Shown one piece after another: positions 1 through 43,642 of a stretch of DNA of 64,000 bases; position 1 is the first letter of the stretch; each line of letters opens with the position of its first letter. The notes under the pieces are model-generated. The model saw only the letters and a program-made list of their open reading frames with translations, made no database searches and had not been told where the DNA came from. The DNA comes from Candidatus Hebobacterum abditum. GTDB taxonomy: Bacteria; Armatimonadota; Hebobacteria; Hebobacterales; Hebobacteraceae. The stretch lies in NCBI GenBank assembly GCA_029821875.1, contig JALGXW010000007.1:1-64000 (forward strand). The letters are read 5' to 3'. A program made the position numbers and the translations under genes.

Positions 1-776
1 CGCTTCACCGCATCGCCGGTGAGCACGCCATGGGTCACGCCCACGTAGATGTCCCCGACCCCGAAGCCGCGCAGCATATCCACGGTTTCTATCAAGGAGC
101 TACCGGTCGCTATTTCGTCATCAAAGCAGAGGATCGTCTTGTCCTCCACCTCGCCGACGACAGCACGCGCCTCCACCTTCCGGTCGCCGAGGCGGCGCTT
201 GTCGATGAAGGCGAGCGGGATGTTGAGGCGCGTCGCGTAGGCGCCGGCTCTGCGGGCCGAGCCCGCGTCCGGTGCCAGCGCCACGCGGTTCTGAAGGCCG
301 AGCGAGTCGAAGTAGTCGCACAAGATCGGCGTCGCTGAGAGGTGATCGGCCGGACAGCGGAAGAACCCCTGCACCTGCTCGGAGTGCAGGGTCATGGTGA
401 GGAGCCGATTGGCACCGGCCGTTACCAGGAGATCGGCGATGAGGCGGCCGGCGATGGAAATGCGCGGCATGTCCTTCTTGTCGGAGCGCGCATAGGAGTA
501 GTAGGGCACGACCGCTGTGATCCGGCTCGCGGAAGCGCCCTTCAGCGCATCTAACATGATGAGCAGCTCGACCAGGTGATCGCTCACAGGGCTGCACAGC
601 GATTGGACGACGAAGACGTCTCGCTCCCGTACGTTCTCGCGGATCTGCACGAAGATGTTGTCGTTCGAGAAACGGGAGATGTTGGCCTCGCCCAGCGGTA
701 TGCCGAGCTCGTCGCAGATGGCCTGGGCGAGCTGCGGGTTCGAGCTGCCCGTGAAGACTTTGATTTCGTCCTGCAA
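1..776 (-). CDS. prs: Ribose-phosphate pyrophosphokinase (partial, 3' end outside window)
   Basis: The product makes PRPP from ribose 5-phosphate and ATP in the cytoplasm, feeding purine, pyrimidine, histidine and NAD synthesis. About 258 N-terminal residues are visible, starting MQDEIKVFTGSSNP. They include the family core 'VVPYYSYARSDKK', the 'APDAGSARRA' segment and a PRPP loop that reads 'FDDEIATGSS', a variant of the usual DDMIDTGGT. The start is TTG at 776-774: a GGAGGG ribosome site sits 7 nt upstream inside the end of purD, and no ATG lies nearby in frame. It begins 1 nt after the purD stop, so translational coupling with purD is likely and fits a shared role in purine supply. The C-terminus is cut by the window edge. 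Confidence 0.93.
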   Translation of the reverse strand, partial: MQDEIKVFTGSSNPQLAQAICDELGIPLGEANISRFSNDNIFVQIRENVRERDVFVVQSLCSPVSDHLVELLIMLDALKGASASRITAVVPYYSYARSDKKDMPRISIAGRLIADLLVTAGANRLLTMTLHSEQVQGFFRCPADHLSATPILCDYFDSLGLQNRVALAPDAGSARRAGAYATRLNIPLAFIDKRRLGDRKVEARAVVGEVEDKTILCFDDEIATGSSLIETVDMLRGFGVGDIYVGVTHGVLTGDAVK

Positions 777-777
777 A

Positions 778-2061
778 TCACTGCCCTCCAGCGGCGCGCC
801 GGCCGATGTCGCGGCGGCAGTGCGCGCCTTCGAATGATATCTGATCGACGGCTTCGTAGGCCGTGCTGATGGCATCGGACAGCGAGTCGCCCAGCCCTGT
901 CACCCCGAGCACGCGGCCGCCGGCCGTAACCAGCCCCTCATCGGTCTCCTTGCTGGCCGCGTGGAACACCACCACGTCGTCCCGGTCGGCCAGGCCGTCG
1001 AGGCCGTCTATAAGCTTGCCCGTGTCGTACTCGCCCGGGTAGCCGCCGGAGGCCATGACTACACACACCGCGGCGCCGTTCTGCCCGGACTCGGCCGCCG
1101 GCAGATCTCCCTCAATCGCGGCCTCCAGCAGATCGACGAGGTCGCCCTTCATCGTCGGAAAGACGACCTGTGCCTCCGGGTCGCCGAAGCGGCAGTTGTA
1201 TTCCAGCAGCTTCGGGCCCTCGGACGTGAGCATCATCCCTGCGTACAGGCACCCCACGAACGGCCGCCCCTCGGCCGCCATGGCGGCGATGGTGGGCTTC
1301 AGGATGTCCTCCAGTGTGTGCTCGTACATCTCCTCCGGGAAGAGGGGCACCGGCGAGTAGCATCCCATCCCACCGGTGTTCGGCCCCGTGTCGCCGTCGA
1401 AGACCTGCTTGTGGTCCTGAGAGGCCGGCAGCGCATACAAGTGCTCACCGTCCGAGATCGCCATCATCGAGACTTCCTGGCCTTGGAGGAACTCCTCGAT
1501 CACCACCCGGCGGCCGGACTCGCCGAAGACCCCTCGCACCAGCGAGTCCGTGATCGCCTCGATCGCCTCCTCCCGCGTATGGGCGATCGTGACGCCCTTC
1601 CCGGCCGCGAGACCATCGGCCTTCACCGCCACCGGGTATGTCTGGGTGTCGAGGTAGGCGATGGCATGCGCCGGGACGTCAAAGGTCGCGAAGAATCCGC
1701 TGGGGAGATCGTGCCGAGAGAAGAAGTCCTTGCTCCAGGCCTTGCTGCTTTCCAGCACGGCCGCGGCCCGCGTCGGGCCGAAGATCCTGAGCCCGCGCTC
1801 GTGGAACACGTCCACGATCCCCGCCGCCAGCGGGGCCTCAGGCCCAGCCACCGTCAGGTCGATCTTCTCCTGGGCGGCGAAGTCCGCCAGAGCCGGCAGG
1901 TCGAGCACGGAGATGTCGACGCATTCCGCCTGCTGAGCGATGCCGGCGTTGCCCGGGGCGCAGTAGATCTTCTCCGCTCGCGGGCTCTGGGCGATCTTCC
2001 ACACGAGGGTGTGCTCGCGCCCGCCCGACCCGACGACCAGGATGCGAAGCCGTGAACTCAT
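778..2061 (-). CDS. purD: Phosphoribosylamine-glycine ligase (GAR synthetase)
   Basis: This ATP-grasp enzyme joins glycine to phosphoribosylamine, the second step of de novo purine synthesis. The 427-residue length is normal for the family. The N-terminus holds 'ILVVGSGGREHTLVWK', and further motifs include 'VAVKADGLAAGKGV' (ATP-grasp), 'QDHKQVFDGDTGPNTGGMG' and 'YNCRFGDPEAQVV' (metal/ATP site). The C-terminus, 'YEAVDQISFEGAHCRRDIG', is typical. It starts with ATG and the prs gene follows after 1 nt. It reads in the same direction as the upstream dnaB group, separated from the small membrane-protein gene by 68 nt. Confidence 0.97.
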   Translation of the reverse strand: MSSRLRILVVGSGGREHTLVWKIAQSPRAEKIYCAPGNAGIAQQAECVDISVLDLPALADFAAQEKIDLTVAGPEAPLAAGIVDVFHERGLRIFGPTRAAAVLESSKAWSKDFFSRHDLPSGFFATFDVPAHAIAYLDTQTYPVAVKADGLAAGKGVTIAHTREEAIEAITDSLVRGVFGESGRRVVIEEFLQGQEVSMMAISDGEHLYALPASQDHKQVFDGDTGPNTGGMGCYSPVPLFPEEMYEHTLEDILKPTIAAMAAEGRPFVGCLYAGMMLTSEGPKLLEYNCRFGDPEAQVVFPTMKGDLVDLLEAAIEGDLPAAESGQNGAAVCVVMASGGYPGEYDTGKLIDGLDGLADRDDVVVFHAASKETDEGLVTAGGRVLGVTGLGDSLSDAISTAYEAVDQISFEGAHCRRDIGRRAAGGQ

Positions 2062-2129
2062 CGAGAAGTCCGCCTTTCTTCGAGAACACTCTGAGGAAGC
2101 CGCCTCCGGCGGGCCCTCGGGCCTGGCCG

Positions 2130-2552
2130 CTACGTCTCGTCTTCCCCGGCAGGCCCCTCCCCTTCGCCCTCCGCCCCTGCCGACTCTGACTGCTCATCGG
2201 CCTCCCGTGAGGCCCTCAACATCTCGAGCAGCCCCTCCGCCGCCGCCTGGTGGCTCTCCCGCAGCTCCCTCAGCCGGCGAAAGGTCTCCCTCACTGCCGA
2301 GACCAGTGCAATGAGGAAGGCGGCCAGCCACACGAACAGCAGGACCTTCATCGCGATTGCCCAGCGAGGGTCCGCCGCCCCCATTTCCTGCGCTTCCTTC
2401 TGTTTCGCCAGGGCAAGCAGGAAGCCACTGAGCGCGAGGAAGCCCAGCCCGAGCCACCCGACGTAGGACCGATGCCGAAAGCCGGAAAGCCATCCGGCGA
2501 GCAGACAGATCCCGACGAAGGCGGTTAGAGCGGCGGCCGTCTGCGGGGACAT
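2130..2552 (-). CDS. Small membrane protein, unknown function
   Basis: This 140-residue protein is not one I recognise. Three hydrophobic segments are visible: about residues 5-24, 31-49 and 66-87. A basic, helical stretch (VRETFRRLRELRESHQ) and an acidic Glu/Gly-rich tail follow. An inner-membrane protein with a cytosolic, possibly coiled-coil, C-terminus is the likely topology. It starts 7 nt below the dnaB stop, with an AAAGG site just ahead of its ATG, so it probably belongs to the rplI-dnaB transcript. No catalytic motif is visible. Confidence 0.7.
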   Translation of the reverse strand: MSPQTAAALTAFVGICLLAGWLSGFRHRSYVGWLGLGFLALSGFLLALAKQKEAQEMGAADPRWAIAMKVLLFVWLAAFLIALVSAVRETFRRLRELRESHQAAAEGLLEMLRASREADEQSESAGAEGEGEGPAGEDET

Positions 2553-2559
2553 AACGCCT

Positions 2560-3939
2560 TTACTCCTCCGCCTCCACGAAGCGCTCCTCGAGGTTCTCGA
2601 AGCGCACGAACTCGTCTACCCACGCCAGCCGGACGACACCGGTCGGCCCGTTCCTCTGCTTCGATACGATGATCTCGGCGATGTTCTGGTCGGTCTCCAG
2701 GTAGCCCGCGGCCCGGAGCTCGTCCCCCCCGTAGTAGGCCGGCCGGTAGATGAATGCGACAACGTCCGCCTCCTGCTCGATCGATCCGCTCTCCCGCAGG
2801 TCGGAGAGAAGCGGACGTCTCGGATGACCCCTCGCCTCCACTGCACGGCTGAGCTGAGAAAGCGCCACCACGGGCACCCGCAGCTCGCGGGCCAGTGCCT
2901 TCAGCGATCGCGCAACCTGTGAGATCTCTTGCGTCCGGTTCTCGAAGCGCCCATAGCCTGACATCAGCTGGAGGTAGTCCACGATGATGAGGTCGAGCCC
3001 GTGCTCGGCCCGCAGCCTTCGCGCCTTGCCCCTCATCTCCAGCACGTTCATGGTCGGGCTGTCGTCGAGGTAGACCGGGGCTTTGTAGAGGCGACTGGCG
3101 GCCAGCGCGATGCGGTCCATGTCCCCTCGGTCGATGTAGCCCTGCCGGATGTTGTGCTGGTTCACGCCCGCCTCGGAGCAGAGCAAACGCAGCGCGAGCT
3201 GCTCCTTCGCCATCTCCAGGCTGAACACCGCGACCCTCTTGCTCTGCGTCCTGGCCACGCCGGCTGCGACGTTCAACGCCAGCGCGGTCTTCCCCATCGA
3301 CGGCCGCGACGCTATCACGACGAGGTCAGAGGGCTGCAGTCCCGACAGCAGGCCGTCCAGGTCTTCGTATCCGGTCAGCAGTCCCGTCCCCGGCCGGTGC
3401 GACTCCTGCATCTCGTCGATCCGGTCGTAGGTCTCGCCGAGCAGCTCTCGGATCGGCGTGAAGGCCGGGGTTATCGTCCTCTCCCCCACCGAGAAGACCG
3501 TCTGCTCTGCCCTATCCACGATCGTCTCGACGTCTTCGTCGGCGGCGTTCTGGGCGAAGCCTTGGATCTCGCTGCCCGCTCGTATGAGCGCCCTCAGCGT
3601 CGCCTTCTCGCGTACGATCCTCGCGTAGTTGAGCACGGCCGCGGCCGTGGGCGCGGCATCCTGCAACTCAATCAAGTAGGGCGTCCCGCCAACCGCCTCC
3701 AGTTGGTCGCGATTCTGCAGACGCGCTTGGAGAGTGACTACGTCGACGGGGTCGCTGTCGTTGAAGAGGTCGGTCATCGCCCGATACAGCATCTGGTGCT
3801 GTGGGCTGTAGAAATCCTCTGGCTGGAGGAGATCGACGACCCTGGCGATCGCCTCTCGCTCCACGAGCATAGCGCCCAGAGTCGCCTGCTCCGCCTCCAA
3901 GCTCTGAGGAGGAACCCTTTCAAGCAGCGGTGCGCTCAA
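2560..3939 (-). CDS. dnaB: Replicative DNA helicase DnaB
   Basis: DnaB is the hexameric ring helicase that unwinds DNA at the replication fork. The 459-residue protein has the N-terminal scaffold domain (about 12-110), a linker, and a RecA-like C-terminal ATPase. The Walker A motif 'SRPSMGKTA' lies at 211-219. 'LIIVDYLQLMSG' marks Walker B, and 'DLRESGSIEQEADVV' near the C-terminus is also diagnostic. No intein is present. The start is TTG at 3939-3937, supported by AGGAGGG 6 nt upstream, which overlaps the end of rplI. The rplI-dnaB order is a common bacterial arrangement, but rpsF, ssb and rpsR, which often precede them, are not here. Confidence 0.97.
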   Translation of the reverse strand: MSAPLLERVPPQSLEAEQATLGAMLVEREAIARVVDLLQPEDFYSPQHQMLYRAMTDLFNDSDPVDVVTLQARLQNRDQLEAVGGTPYLIELQDAAPTAAAVLNYARIVREKATLRALIRAGSEIQGFAQNAADEDVETIVDRAEQTVFSVGERTITPAFTPIRELLGETYDRIDEMQESHRPGTGLLTGYEDLDGLLSGLQPSDLVVIASRPSMGKTALALNVAAGVARTQSKRVAVFSLEMAKEQLALRLLCSEAGVNQHNIRQGYIDRGDMDRIALAASRLYKAPVYLDDSPTMNVLEMRGKARRLRAEHGLDLIIVDYLQLMSGYGRFENRTQEISQVARSLKALARELRVPVVALSQLSRAVEARGHPRRPLLSDLRESGSIEQEADVVAFIYRPAYYGGDELRAAGYLETDQNIAEIIVSKQRNGPTGVVRLAWVDEFVRFENLEERFVEAEE

Positions 3940-38487: not shown

Positions 38488-38508
38488 GTCTATCTCGCAG
38501 CGCGCAGC

Positions 38509-38580
38509 CCGTTGCTGTGGCTATCCGCCAGCGCGGTCAAAAGCCGACTCCATCGGGTCCGCGCTAAGCTGCGAAGGGAG
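38509..38580 (+). pseudogene. Fragment resembling the end of sigma region 4
   Basis: The 24 codons translate to a stretch containing 'SASAVKSRLHRVRAKLRRE', close to the recognition helix of ECF sigma region 4.2 (compare 'IGTLKSRLHHAHRILVERL' in the intact sigma gene nearby). Nothing else of a sigma factor precedes it. The frame runs straight on into the receiver-like protein. It is either a decayed sigma-gene 3' end or a short N-terminal extension of the next gene. Confidence 0.35.
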
Positions 38581-38589
38581 ATGCTGAAC

Positions 38590-39048
38590 ATGATGTCCGA
38601 TAACGAGGAGGCTTCCCTGGGAGCATCGGATGGCGAGCCCTGGAGGCTGAGGACGGTTCTGCTGGTCGAGCCGGAGGAGGAACTCCGAGGCGCGCTCCTC
38701 GCTGCGCTGAAGGCGGCTGGCTACGAGGTGCTGATGCTGCCTACCGGAGAGGCGGCCCTCGGAGCGATCGACCGCGGGGAGGGGCAGTTCCTGCTTCTCG
38801 ACAAGCACTGCGGCGAGCCACACTGGACGGAGGCACTCGCACTCGTGCAACTCGCCGCGCGTAGGGGAAGGAACGTGCCTGTCGGCGTCTTCGTCGACGC
38901 CGAGAGAGAACGAGACGTCTTCCTCGCGTGGCAGTGTGGCGCAGACTTCTGCCTGACTCGTCCCCCACACGCTGCCGAGGTCGTCGAGATGGTGACGCGG
39001 GTGGCGAAGGCGTGGGCAGAGGAAGGGGCAAAACGCTCAGGTCGATGA
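38590..39048 (+). CDS. Degenerate response-regulator receiver-domain protein
   Basis: The 152-residue protein is a single CheY-like domain: 'TVLLVEPEEELRGALLAALKAAGYEV' in outline, a probable phospho-acceptor Asp in 'QFLLLDKHCGE', and a final 'ADFCLTRPPHAAEVV'. The acidic pair of the metal site is Glu rather than Asp-Asp, and the conserved Lys before Pro is Arg, so phosphorylation may be lost or altered. No output domain is present. ATG 38590 has GGGAG 9 nt upstream; 38581 is possible. It directly precedes the ECF sigma and compact RNA polymerase genes, and may be part of their regulation. Confidence 0.75.
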   Translation: MMSDNEEASLGASDGEPWRLRTVLLVEPEEELRGALLAALKAAGYEVLMLPTGEAALGAIDRGEGQFLLLDKHCGEPHWTEALALVQLAARRGRNVPVGVFVDAERERDVFLAWQCGADFCLTRPPHAAEVVEMVTRVAKAWAEEGAKRSGR

Positions 39049-39151
39049 AGTGATCGGCTTTGTGAGGCGTCTGGAAGAGCTCTGGCCTGAAGAACTTCGG
39101 CCGCAGTGAACCTTTTGCCCCGAGACCGTGTCCTTGGGATTGAGGGTGTTG

Positions 39152-39715
39152 ATGGCCGACCCTGGGGTGGACCTCATCCGCCGCATCCAGCACGGCGACG
39201 AAGCGGCCTTGGCTGACCTCATGGCCCAGCACTCCGGGCTGCTCCGGATCCACTTGATCCGCTACGTCGGCCCGGCCGACGCAGAGGACATGCTCCAGGA
39301 GGTCTGGCTTCGCGTCTGGGACCGCGCCCACCAATGGGATGGACGCGGGCGGCCGCTGGCCTGGCTGCTGGCCATCGCCACGAACATCGCCCTGAACCAT
39401 CTGCGCGGACGGCGACGGACGGTAGCGCTCGACGACCTGGTCGCGGAGGAGCCGTGGGAGACTCCGGCGTCTATGTCGGAAGCGTTCCTTCCGGGGCCGG
39501 AGGAGCAGGCCGTCTGGCGAGGAGAGTTGGACCGGACGCTCGCCGCCATGGCCGACCTCCCGGAAGACAAGGAGGCGGCGCTTCGCCTCGTGAGGATCGA
39601 GGGATACACGATTCGGGAGGCGGCCGAGCTGCTGGGGGTCCCCATCGGCACACTCAAATCCCGGCTTCACCACGCGCATCGGATACTGGTGGAGCGACTG
39701 GAGGAAGAACCGTGA
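39152..39715 (+). CDS. ECF-type RNA polymerase sigma factor coupled to a compact RNA polymerase
   Basis: The 187-residue protein has sigma region 2 (about 22-90: 'EDMLQEVWLRVWDRAHQWDG', 'PLAWLLAIATNIALNHLRGRRR') and region 4 (about 128-182: 'LRLVRIEGYTIREAAELLGVPIGTLKSRLHHAH' in outline). No region 3 is present, as expected for group IV sigma factors. ATG 39152 follows GAGGG; GTG 39128 is an alternative. Its stop overlaps the start of the fused beta/beta-prime gene (GTGA), so the two proteins are made together. The natural inference is a dedicated sigma for that polymerase. No anti-sigma gene is recognisable, though the receiver protein or the downstream permease could signal to it. Confidence 0.93.
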   Translation: MADPGVDLIRRIQHGDEAALADLMAQHSGLLRIHLIRYVGPADAEDMLQEVWLRVWDRAHQWDGRGRPLAWLLAIATNIALNHLRGRRRTVALDDLVAEEPWETPASMSEAFLPGPEEQAVWRGELDRTLAAMADLPEDKEAALRLVRIEGYTIREAAELLGVPIGTLKSRLHHAHRILVERLEEEP

Positions 39716-42700
39716 GTGCGAAGACCGAGAACATCCACGTGCGGAGCTTCCGGGAGTTCGTCCAAAGACGTCTTCCGGAGGCACTGGGGCAAGTGGTTGT
39801 GTTGACGGACTACACGGCCGAGTGGGCCGGGGATGGGACGGGGTGTGTCAGCTTCTCCGTGGGGGAGAACGGCCCGCGCATCGCGTTCGACCAGTTGCCG
39901 TTCCCCCGGCACGACGGAACCTTCGACTGTGGGAGCGGACGTGTCGTGGTGATGACGGCAAGCAGCAGCAACCTGGAAGAGGCTGAGATCAAGGCCGTGG
40001 GTGAGCAGCTGATGGACGTGATCGCACCTCGACTTGCGGCGCCGCCGGAGGGCGTCGAGCCGGAGGAGGCGATGCTGCGCGCGTGGTTCCCGCTGGACAA
40101 GTGGTTGTGGGAGTTCATTCTGGAAGGGAACGCGAGCGCGCAGTGGCTGGATGACATCAACCCGATTGCGAGGGAGACGCATCTTCGCCGCATCTGGGTG
40201 ATGGATCCGGACCTATCGTTTCACGCGTCGCAGATCGGGAGGGCTTGTAGCTTCGAGACGCCGGAGGGGCCGAACTGCGGGCGCGTGCTGACGCTCGCGA
40301 GGGGCGCCAGCGTGAGGGACGGCAGGATCGTGCCAGCCGCGGGTCGGGACGAGGACACACTGGGCCTGAGCGCGAGCCTGGTTCCCCTGCTGTGTCACAA
40401 CGACCCGAATCGGCAACTCATGGGCGCGAACATGATCCGGCAGATGGTCCCGCCGGACGAGCCCGAGGCGCCGCTCGTGCAGTCTGGACTGGAGCCAGAG
40501 GACGGGAGCGCGTGGCTCGGCCGCAATCTCCTGACGGCCTTCTGCTACTGGAAGGGAATGAACTACGAGGATGCCATCGTGGTGAGCGAGTCGGCGGCGA
40601 GGAAGCTGGCGTCGAGGCCCTGGGGGCTCGAGGTCGGGGACAAGCTGGCGAACCGGCATGGGTGCAAGGGCGTGGTGGGTGCAGTGCTGCGGGACGATGA
40701 TATGCCGCACCTGCCGGACGGACGCCCGGTGGAGTTGGTGTTCGATGCGATGGGACTGCATTCGCGCCTGAACTTCGGACAGGTCCTGGAGGCGACGTTA
40801 GGGCTGATCGCGGAGAAGCGGGGGCAGCCGGAGATAGCACCCCCCTTCCGCAGGACGACCCCGGGGGAGTTGCACGCGATGCTGCGGGGCGCGGGGCTGC
40901 CAGAGTCGGGGCAATTCACGCTGCGCGATGGGAAAGACGGTTCGGAGCTGGAGGAGCTGACGACGGCAGGCGTCGTGTACTGGGGGCGACTGGTGCACCT
41001 TGCGCGAGCGAAGATCCACGCCGTGGGGGCCGGCGAGGCGAGCGAGTTCCACGGCCAGCGGACCGGCAGCATGGAGTATGAGGCGCTGAAGGCGGCCAGA
41101 GCGCAGAAGAACATTCTCGACGCGTACGGGACGCGGGCGGTCTCGCCCGAGCAGTCCCAGGACCTGGCGGCCGGCGTTGCCAGTGGCTTCCTGGCGGAGG
41201 CGGCGGAGGCGCCCTCGCCGCTGTTCCGGCGTGCGCAACGGGCGCTACGGGCAGCGATGATCGAGCTGGCCTACGAGGATGGCGAGGTGAGAGTCGGCTG
41301 GGCAACTCCGACCCCGAGCGACGTCGAATTGGCGGAGCCCGTCGAGCATACGTGGCAGCCCGAGCGGATGCTGACACATGTGGGGCCAAAGCCGCTGGGC
41401 GATGACGGAGCTTACGATCGCGTCCTCGCTGCCAACGACCGCTTGCGTCAAGCCACTCGGGCGGGGAGCGGCGAGGCGTCGGAGCCCGCGCGGCAGTCGC
41501 TTCGTCAGGCTCTGGAGGCGCTGTTCGAGCGACTGGAGACGCGGAGATCGTCAGGTAGTCCGCTTCCGCCGCCAGGGGGTTTCGACACCTGTGCGGTGGA
41601 GTTCTCCACGCGGAGCCTGTTCACGGGACGGTCGGTACTCGCGCCAGGATACGGGTTGAGGCTGGGTCAGGTGGGTCTGCCGGAGGACATCGCGTGGCCG
41701 CTGTTCGGAGCGCTGGTGGCCAGCCAAGTGGGGGCCGAGCACACCGCCGAGCGAGGCTATCGAGTCAAGCGGGCAATCGAGCGCGCGATGCAAGCGAGCA
41801 TGATCGTCATCAACCGCGCTCCGACCTTGGAGCCGACGTCCGTCACCGCCTTTGAGCCGGTAATGGCGCCGGGGAACGCCATTCTGCTGCACCCGCTCTG
41901 CTGCCGGCTGTTCAATGCGGACTTCGATGGGGACCAGGCGGCGGTGTGGCTGCCAGTGAGCAGGTCAGCGCAGGCAGAGGCGCGGGAAAGGCTGAGCCTG
42001 ACCGGACACCTGCAGCGCGACCCCACCGTCGTCGTGGGGCATCTCGCGCCGGGGCACTCCCTCCTGGCGGGGTTGGCCTGCGCGCTGGAGTCGGCGGAGG
42101 GACGGGCCGCATTCGAGGCGGCCTGGCCGACGGATTGTGAGGGGCCGGTGGAGCCACTCACGAGACCTAAGCTCGTCGCGGCCCTGCTGGGCGTGATGGA
42201 GGCGCTGGGACCGGAGCGGCTTCTCGATCTCGTCGAGCGGCTGTACCGCATAGGGGACGCGTGGGCGACGAAGTCGGGGGCCTCGCTCAGTCCGTTTGTG
42301 GGAGAGGCGCTGACGCTGCCCCGTCCTCCGACCTCGGAGGCGGGGCCGGCCTGGCACGCGTATGCGTCGATGGTGGAGGAGGTGATCTCCTCGCGAGGGG
42401 AGAGTGACCCGACACTGCGGGCGCCGCTGCGAGCCGTGCGGAGCGGTGCGCGCGGATCGGTGCACCACCTGAGGGCCCTGGTCGGCCCGCTCGCCCTGGC
42501 CGACCCATATGAAACCAATACGCCGGCGACCCATGGCTACCGAGACGGCCTGACCGCGGCCGAGCTGTGGCCTGTGGTGAGTCGATCAAGGCGCAGCCTC
42601 CAGGCCATCTGGCAAGCTCAGGAACGGCGGGCCGCGGGCCCGCCGTCCGCAGAGAGTGGAAGCGTATTGCGGCGGGCGATGGTGGCGAGCCGTCCCGGCC

Positions 42701-42801
42701 GCGTCTTCGCCGAGGCTGCCGAGAACGGCGAAGTCGATCCGCTGACCGGCCCCGACGTGCGGCTGTGGGTCGGCCTGCTCCCGCTGCACGAAGGAGAATA
42801 G
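39712..42801 (+). CDS. Compact single-chain RNA polymerase: fused beta and beta-prime core
   Basis: The 1029 residues align by eye with RpoB, then RpoC. Beta part: 'HDGTFDCGSGRVVV' (68-80), 'NPIARETHLRRI' (150-161), 'FETPEGPNCG' (181-190), 'LMGANMIRQMVP' (236-247), 'NYEDAIVVSE' (284-293), 'GDKLANRHGCKGVVG' (309-323) with K311 and K319 matching E. coli K1065/K1073, and 'GQRTGSMEYEAL' (448-459). Beta-prime part: clamp-helix-like 567-612, 'FTGRSVLAPGYGLRLGQVGLP' in outline (637-657), 'NRAPTLEP' (701-708), catalytic 'NADFDGDQ' (735-742; D737, D739, D741), F-loop 'SGARGS' (911-916), bridge helix (about 940-990). The beta flap (about 200 residues in E. coli), the trigger loop and the beta-prime zinc ribbon are missing. 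GTG 39712 has GGAGG 7 nt upstream and overlaps the sigma stop. All key catalytic residues are kept, so activity is plausible. A housekeeping polymerase is excluded by size. Confidence 0.93.
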   Translation: MSAKTENIHVRSFREFVQRRLPEALGQVVVLTDYTAEWAGDGTGCVSFSVGENGPRIAFDQLPFPRHDGTFDCGSGRVVVMTASSSNLEEAEIKAVGEQLMDVIAPRLAAPPEGVEPEEAMLRAWFPLDKWLWEFILEGNASAQWLDDINPIARETHLRRIWVMDPDLSFHASQIGRACSFETPEGPNCGRVLTLARGASVRDGRIVPAAGRDEDTLGLSASLVPLLCHNDPNRQLMGANMIRQMVPPDEPEAPLVQSGLEPEDGSAWLGRNLLTAFCYWKGMNYEDAIVVSESAARKLASRPWGLEVGDKLANRHGCKGVVGAVLRDDDMPHLPDGRPVELVFDAMGLHSRLNFGQVLEATLGLIAEKRGQPEIAPPFRRTTPGELHAMLRGAGLPESGQFTLRDGKDGSELEELTTAGVVYWGRLVHLARAKIHAVGAGEASEFHGQRTGSMEYEALKAARAQKNILDAYGTRAVSPEQSQDLAAGVASGFLAEAAEAPSPLFRRAQRALRAAMIELAYEDGEVRVGWATPTPSDVELAEPVEHTWQPERMLTHVGPKPLGDDGAYDRVLAANDRLRQATRAGSGEASEPARQSLRQALEALFERLETRRSSGSPLPPPGGFDTCAVEFSTRSLFTGRSVLAPGYGLRLGQVGLPEDIAWPLFGALVASQVGAEHTAERGYRVKRAIERAMQASMIVINRAPTLEPTSVTAFEPVMAPGNAILLHPLCCRLFNADFDGDQAAVWLPVSRSAQAEARERLSLTGHLQRDPTVVVGHLAPGHSLLAGLACALESAEGRAAFEAAWPTDCEGPVEPLTRPKLVAALLGVMEALGPERLLDLVERLYRIGDAWATKSGASLSPFVGEALTLPRPPTSEAGPAWHAYASMVEEVISSRGESDPTLRAPLRAVRSGARGSVHHLRALVGPLALADPYETNTPATHGYRDGLTAAELWPVVSRSRRSLQAIWQAQERRAAGPPSAESGSVLRRAMVASRPGRVFAEAAENGEVDPLTGPDVRLWVGLLPLHEGE

Positions 42802-42871: not shown

Positions 42872-43642
42872 ATGAACGCGCCCTCTCAGCGCGGGTGGTT
42901 TGCGGATCTCCTCGACAACCCCATCCTCAGGCGGGAGGCGGTGCCTCGCATCATCCGCCGAGCCAGCCCCAACATTCGTGCCATGCTGGCGGTTCTCGCC
43001 TTGGGCGGCTCCTTCGTCCTCGGCGCGTATCTCACCGCCATATCCGACGCAGGGGTCTTGGCGGCGATAGCCATCGCCGCCGTGTCTGCATGGAGCGGCC
43101 TTTCGCTGTTGGTAGCGGCCTTCAGTTCCTCTCGTTCAATCGCTCAAGAGCGCATGTCCGGCACGTGGGACGCGCTCATCATGTCGCGCCTGGGCGGCAG
43201 GGGAATCGTTCTCGGGAAGCTGCTCGGCACGCTCCTTCCGCTGTGGACCGTGGGCGTCATCCTCTTACCGATGGTTCTGCTCCTCCTCGCTGCGAGCTGG
43301 GCGAACTGGCCCTGGGCTGCGCGGGAGATCCTCTATGCCATACTCGCGGCCTATGGATTGGCGATAGGAGGCGGCACTGCCGCTGCCTCTCTGGGCCTCT
43401 ACTGCTCGATGAGGTGCCGTACCGTCGCCTCCGCGCAGTTTCTGATGATCGTGCTCGGCGTCATCATCACGATGGTCGCGCAGTTCGGCTCCATCATGGC
43501 CACGTTTCCCGTGCTCATACTGGACAGCCCAATTCCCTATGTGGTCATCCACGGCACACTGCTGCTGCTTCCGGGGTTCCTGATGCTGGTGGACCTGCTG
43601 ACGCGCTTCAACACACTCGAACGGTACCACCGCAGGAGTTGA
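42872..43642 (+). CDS. ABC-2-type transporter permease
   Basis: The 256-residue protein has six hydrophobic segments, roughly 37-56, 62-85, 118-145, 152-178, 185-208 and 215-240. It contains the ABC-2 permease signature region 'SIAQERMSGTWDALIMSRLGGRGIVLGKLLG' in outline. No ATP-binding subunit is next to it. It lies 70 nt after the compact RNA polymerase gene on the same strand and may be its co-transcribed partner or target. A 20-codon frame (42813-42875) overlaps its ATG. No good ribosome site is adjacent, so the exact start is uncertain. Confidence 0.82.
   Translation: MNAPSQRGWFADLLDNPILRREAVPRIIRRASPNIRAMLAVLALGGSFVLGAYLTAISDAGVLAAIAIAAVSAWSGLSLLVAAFSSSRSIAQERMSGTWDALIMSRLGGRGIVLGKLLGTLLPLWTVGVILLPMVLLLLAASWANWPWAAREILYAILAAYGLAIGGGTAAASLGLYCSMRCRTVASAQFLMIVLGVIITMVAQFGSIMATFPVLILDSPIPYVVIHGTLLLLPGFLMLVDLLTRFNTLERYHRRS

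Follow-up and report, generated by a model that had tools for sequence, protein, structure and literature searches.

In the textbook view, bacteria have one core RNA polymerase, which is reprogrammed by exchangeable sigma factors. Two-barrel polymerases consisting of a single chain are known from phages and plasmids, and full-length beta-beta' fusions are known from some bacteria. The locus described here was found in a 64,000-nucleotide (nt) stretch of the genome of Candidatus Hebobacterum abditum (Armatimonadota; contig JALGXW010000007.1, positions 1 to 64,000), hereafter called the window. It is a two-gene operon on the plus strand, in which a gene for a sigma factor of the extracytoplasmic function (ECF) type (39152-39715) is followed by a gene for a miniature single-chain beta-beta' RNA polymerase (39712-42801). 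These two genes probably represent a self-contained second transcription system, namely a sigma-polymerase pair, in which we infer that the chain is active as an RNA polymerase, binds the sigma and is autoregulated together with it.

Comparison with described polymerases

The YonO polymerase of the Bacillus phage SPbeta has no trigger-loop homology, is processive and less accurate, pauses little and does not cleave RNA (PMC5467207). The chain from the window resembles YonO and YonO-like enzymes in that it is a small single chain of about 100 kDa with both barrels and a DxDGD triad, without a trigger loop or flap. However, YonO is encoded by a phage and, as the earlier note on this DNA had supposed, no sigma factor is annotated among its immediate neighbours, whereas the present family is clearly of bacterial type, chromosomal and sigma-linked. 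Membership in the YonO family was rejected, with E-values of 0.33 (blastp) and 0.14 (hhalign) and a match only around DxDGD. The lack of similarity to cellular enzymes that is typical of YonO was not found here either: the hhalign E-values were 7e-67 for beta and about 1e-46 to 1e-48 for beta' of Escherichia coli. YonO would be the best functional guide to this family, as regards mechanism and not membership.

The housekeeping RpoB/RpoC enzymes share with the chain the two barrels, the fork/ETPEGPN region, the NADFDGDQ and SGARGS motifs and, by profile comparison, the clamp helices. In contrast to them, the chain comprises 1029 amino acids (aa) in one polypeptide and not about 2900 aa in two, belongs to a separate clade, has lost the lobe, flap, zinc domain, rim and trigger loop, and coexists with ordinary rpoB and rpoC. 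Fusions of the Helicobacter/Wolbachia type (NCBIfam PRK09603 and PRK14844) are similar in having beta and then beta' in one frame. These are full-length housekeeping enzymes, as the earlier note had stated, with models of 2839-2890 aa and cut-offs of 4632 and 5372 bits, on which the window chain scores about 192 bits. No NCBIfam polymerase model reached its cut-off with the chain, the best score being 208 bits where 896 are required. Assignment to housekeeping RpoB/RpoC or to a full-length fusion was therefore rejected, since the domain set is incomplete, the cut-offs are missed and the chain is not the sole copy in the genome. Full-length housekeeping rpoB-rpoC fusions were also seen outside the textbook examples, namely in L023 (Bryobacterales, 2881-aa frame) and L054.

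The two-barrel enzymes of phages, namely the crAss-like single chain, the split subunits of jumbo phages and P23-45 gp64/gp96, are also divergent, and some of them are single-chain (PMC10770324, PMC7598289). P23-45 gp64 has only the DxDGD region in common with the miniature chain. No match covering 80% of the polymerase was found in phage and plasmid records, and the 80 best viral contigs contained no chain of this size or with this sigma. Their relatives of the chain lack a sigma, lie outside the miniature clade and belong to two abundant classes (L086-L165): fused chains of about 1850-2500 aa (typically ~2000 aa), and split pairs in which a beta' gene (about 900 aa) is located upstream of a beta gene (about 1000 aa). 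A 1008-aa viral open reading frame (ORF; L164) was rejected as a family member, since it is the central part of a fused chain of roughly 2000 aa that is broken after about 1000 aa. A phage or mobile-element RNA polymerase was rejected as an identity for the chain, which was found neither in the phage, plasmid and viral collections searched nor beside mobile-element genes. PMC10770324 refers to cellular derivatives that form a clade and have fused barrels. No description of a chromosomal miniature polymerase with a dedicated sigma was found in the open-access full-text literature (subscription papers not covered).

Organization of the operon

The following elements make up the operon:

39107-39132, plus strand: promoter-like element, TGAACC (39107-39112), 15-nt spacer and GTGTC (39128-39132)
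39152-39715, plus strand: ECF-type sigma factor, 187 aa, with sigma2 and sigma4 only
39700-39704, plus strand: Shine-Dalgarno sequence GGAGG for the polymerase, within the 3' end of the sigma gene
39712-42801, plus strand: miniature single-chain beta-beta' RNA polymerase, 1029 aa

The polymerase frame is uninterrupted from GTG at 39712 to TAG ending at 42801. The overlap of stop and start described in the earlier note is confirmed: the TGA stop of the sigma and the GTG start of the polymerase share the tetranucleotide GTGA, and the GGAGG lies 7 nt upstream of the polymerase start. A similar layout is present at other junctions of the family, and in most relatives the GGAGG falls in codons for a Trp/Glu-rich sigma tail. 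ATG at 39152 is the better sigma start because the alternative GTG at 39128 sits on the -10 element of the promoter.

Ordinary full-length rpoB (frame of 1277 aa) and rpoC (frame of 1660 aa) are located on another contig (C37) of the source genome, which comprises 4.3 Mb in 103 contigs and is 95% complete. The miniature chain is thus an additional polymerase and not a degraded housekeeping enzyme.

Polymerase domains and active site

Pfam analysis revealed the beta-type domains RNA_pol_Rpb2_6 (PF00562; E-value 6e-43) and Rpb2_3 (PF04565; 3e-8), followed in the same chain by the beta' domain Rpb1_2 (PF00623; 1.5e-22), which agrees with the order of RpoB-type and RpoC-type motifs described earlier. 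Hhalign, domain-specific hidden Markov models (HMMs), residue alignment and AlphaFold modeling were used to locate the parts of the chain:

39730-41193, plus strand: beta-like half, residues 7-494 (E. coli beta 440-1313, E-value 7e-67; beta 29-173, E-value 9e-8; hhalign)
40603-40629, plus strand: site of the flap deletion, residues 298-306 (hhalign)
40642-40668, plus strand: active-site lysines K311 and K319 (GDKLANRHGCKG; residue alignment)
41407-41538, plus strand: beta' clamp helices (coiled coil), residues 566-609 (profile-profile match to E. coli beta' 264-320, E-value 7e-6)
41617-41988, plus strand: beta' double-psi barrel, residues 636-759, with NADFDGD (D737, D739, D741; Pfam, hhalign, HMMs and alignment)
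42541-42633, plus strand: bridge-helix equivalent, residues 944-974 (hhalign)
42685-42774, plus strand: C-terminal segment like the beta' C-terminal switch region (collinear with E. coli beta' about 1325-1356; E-value 0.05, suggestive only)

The HMMs were run on 16 family members, with 31 held-out housekeeping subunits as controls, in which the domains were detected in 28-31 cases. Both barrels and the beta core around residues 218-263 were detected in all 16 members, and the fork region in 12. The beta lobe, the beta flap, the beta' zinc/N-terminal domain and the trigger loop, which would be expected between the bridge helix and the C-terminal segment, were detected in none of the 16; the flap model recognized all 31 held-out housekeeping beta subunits. 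The entire region of the flap, at about 840-1055 in E. coli beta, has shrunk to a short turn of ~9 residues, and the rim helices and jaw are missing from the profile alignment to E. coli.

The AlphaFold model of the chain (predicted local distance difference test, pLDDT, 84.9; predicted template modeling score, pTM, 0.82) agrees with the loss of the lobe, flap, zinc domain, rim and trigger loop and retains the double barrels. In this model, the clamp helices form a helical hairpin (567-583/587-609) and the bridge-helix equivalent contains a helix at 949-974; the N-terminal half of this equivalent resembles the E. coli bridge helix. The best PDB matches of the chain in a Foldseek search were all bacterial-type beta subunits.

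The chain has the hallmarks of two-barrel polymerases, namely a beta' barrel with the metal-binding DxDGD triad and a beta barrel with two basic active-site residues. The catalytic positions named in the earlier note are conserved among homologues: the triad D737/D739/D741 is invariant in the 19 loci that reach it, and in an 18-row alignment K319 is invariant and position 311 is Lys in 16 rows and Arg in the other two. In the genomes with Arg, the glycine following the second lysine is replaced by cysteine.

The sigma factor and its promoter-like element

The sigma protein contains Sigma70_r2 (E-value 1.5e-15) and Sigma70_r4_2 (7e-12). According to Pfam and NCBIfam (superfamily TIGR02937), sigma2 and sigma4 are present and sigma1.1 and sigma3 are absent, as is characteristic of ECF factors. 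Its PDB relatives SigH, SigW and RpoE are similar in this domain set and in the ECF-like promoter motif (GAAC ... GTC), and would also be so in the suggested autoregulation. In contrast to them, the present sigma belongs to a distinct subfamily that is encoded only beside the miniature polymerase. A member of this subfamily is located immediately upstream, on the same strand, in 20 of 20 loci, and the junctions overlap or abut in most of them. A profile of the subfamily, searched against 291 Armatimonadota genomes, picked out the 17 polymerase loci and nothing else in the range of 226-297 bits; the profile was made from the polymerase-linked loci themselves, which favours them, but the gap to the next, ordinary ECF sigmas (~156 bits) is nonetheless wide. 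Pairwise distances of the sigma and the polymerase correlate (Mantel r = 0.91, reached in 0 of 5000 permutations). The dedicated sigma proposed in the earlier note is supported by this constant adjacency and by the lack of the subfamily elsewhere in the phylum. No anti-sigma gene conserved beside the sigma was found among the neighbours of the family loci, nor was any other neighbour conserved between distant members.

The motif (T/C)GAAC(C/T/A)-N14/15-GTGTC is located just upstream of the sigma gene in all 20 family operons. GAAC and GTGTC do not vary among them, and dinucleotide shuffles of these upstream stretches gave on average 0.03 of 20. Since the motif precedes the sigma gene, autoregulation of the operon is suggested. 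A review gives G-12-T-C-10 as the sigmaE -10 element (PMC7598289), and the GTC-ending -10 of the operon motif agrees with this ECF/sigmaE -10. Across the 20 genomes, 91 exact matches of the motif were found, compared with 37 for reversed-pattern controls.

Distribution, selection and phylogeny

Single-chain homologues, 35-58% identical, were found in 17 of 291 Armatimonadota genomes, the source genome included, and in 3 of 301 sampled Chloroflexota genomes. None were found in the 294 Planctomycetota, 297 Actinomycetota and 199 Acidobacteriota genomes sampled. The closest relatives in the genus and family of the source, its congener included, lack the sigma-polymerase genes. The operon is flanked by ordinary chromosomal genes, G032 and G045 sharing a conserved block that extends to either side of it, and no mobile-element or phage genes neighbour it.

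Seventeen of the 20 loci have intact full-length frames, two are cut by contig ends, and one (L224 in G251, 68-3160, minus strand) carries one in-frame stop (TAA, codon 411) in an otherwise intact polymerase. Internal-TGA recoding in G009 and G011 was rejected, as both ORFs end at their own stop. The family is under purifying selection: the ratio of nonsynonymous to synonymous substitution rates (dN/dS) in close pairs is 0.10-0.17 for the polymerase and 0.10 for the sigma.

In a tree built from 559 conserved columns, the miniature chains group together in a single clade (Shimodaira-Hasegawa-like approximate likelihood ratio, SH-aLRT, 99), which lies outside all sampled housekeeping bacterial enzymes and outside the viral enzymes. 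The housekeeping rpoB/rpoC of Armatimonadota form a clade apart from the other phyla sampled. The depth of the miniature clade is uncertain because of long branches and skewed composition. According to this tree, the family did not arise by recent copying of the host's own rpoB/rpoC. Two of the Chloroflexota members, G561 and G603, branch as a pair among the miniature chains of Armatimonadota, which is consistent with horizontal transfer.

Proposed mechanism and alternative explanations

The beta' clamp helices are the docking site of sigma2 in cellular holoenzymes, and the beta flap is normally a major anchor of sigma4. The sigma and the polymerase would be made from one mRNA by coupled translation. 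The sigma would then dock on the retained clamp helices of the roughly 110-kDa chain and bring it to (T/C)GAACC-N15-GTGTC promoters, that of its own operon first. With its own promoter among the targets, the system, once triggered, should amplify its own expression in a positive loop. The chemistry would be that of a standard two-barrel enzyme, with the Asp triad and two basic residues. Given the loss of the lobe, flap, zinc domain, rim and trigger loop, elongation is expected to proceed without the usual control by pausing, backtracking and RNA cleavage, as in YonO.

Several observations weigh against a sigma-polymerase pair of this kind. The flap is missing from the chain, so the contact with the sigma cannot be fully canonical, and how sigma4 would be held without it is the main puzzle. 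The clamp and bridge helices are recognizable only when profiles are compared with each other or in the AlphaFold model, not by single-sequence HMMs, and K311 is replaced by Arg in one genus (G070, L195, and G108, L225; GDRLSNRHGAK). In addition, exact motif matches outside the operon were few and, in the roughly 20 regions inspected, mostly inside genes, and with up to one mismatch the motif was not clearly enriched in G032 and G045 (92 matches versus 83 for reversed controls). No regulon beyond the own operon was detected by the exact search in the 20 genomes or by the relaxed search in these two, and we infer a target set that is very small or degenerate. The sigma could instead act with the housekeeping polymerase, and the miniature chain could be a sigma-independent effector polymerase made from the conserved promoter, serving stress transcription, the synthesis of primer or antisense RNA, or RNA-templated synthesis. 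The absence of the flap and the resemblance of the sigma itself to ordinary ECF factors speak for this alternative, and single-chain two-barrel enzymes do work as lone chains elsewhere (YonO, PMC5467207). However, the exclusive one-to-one pairing, the tight co-evolution and the retained clamp helices argue for a direct partnership, and ECF sigmas of the ordinary type are also found free of any such partner; we consider this alternative decidedly unlikely.

As to origin, the earlier note had considered a mobile element or an ancient paralogue. A polymerase from a phage or plasmid, by now domesticated or still mobile, that captured a sigma and spread horizontally would be compatible with the sigma-polymerase pair, and the patchy occurrence in 17 of 291 and 3 of 301 genomes, the absence from the congener, the nested Chloroflexota pair and the deep position outside cellular enzymes point in this direction. 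Nevertheless, such an origin appears rather doubtful: no relative of this size or with a sigma was found among phages and plasmids or on the 80 best viral contigs, the flanks are ordinary and syntenic, and the nearest sequence similarity is to bacterial beta/beta' and not to viral enzymes. An ancient paralogue fits the tree, with the caveat of long branches. A decaying rpoB-rpoC fusion or pseudogene, to which only the TAA in G251 points, is extremely improbable and already refuted for the family. The 17 intact loci, the low dN/dS and the identical deletions in all members of a clade that is monophyletic across two phyla speak against decay, and the TAA may be a nonsense change or a base error in a draft genome. 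The earlier note had named beforehand the findings that would count against its reading, namely a genome without full-length rpoB and rpoC, a disrupted frame and homologues lacking the catalytic Asp and Lys; each was looked for, and none refuted it.

With respect to the literature searched, the sigma-polymerase pair could be an undescribed cellular system: orthogonal and self-amplifying, with a single chain that has neither flap nor trigger loop and a sigma that works with this core only, located beside the housekeeping enzyme in chromosomes of at least two phyla and possibly representing a lineage that predates the diversification of the known bacterial enzymes. We see the arguments for and against this description as evenly balanced, and whether the pair deserves the name of a new kind of system is about an even question. 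If the interpretation is correct, the one-core rule would no longer hold, as there would be a second core on the chromosome with a sigma exclusive to it. Having no flap, lobe or trigger loop, this core would also be a small natural model of the minimal needs of a sigma-dependent polymerase, and it would lend itself readily to orthogonal expression. With the conserved promoter, a direct test of the idea could be made in a cloned operon.

Sequences adjacent to the operon

An Rfam scan of the window gave no match. Directly upstream of the operon promoter, the frame 38488-39048 begins with a sigma4-like segment (SASAVKSRLHRVRAKLRREML) and reads on without a stop into a weak receiver-like domain (PF00072, E-value 6e-5, below the cut-off). 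This gene was rejected as a third component of the system, since only a weak, non-significant possible remnant precedes the operon in G010 (L186). On the 3' side of the operon, positions 42872-43642 encode a membrane protein, not conserved in relatives, with weak similarity to ABC-2 permeases.

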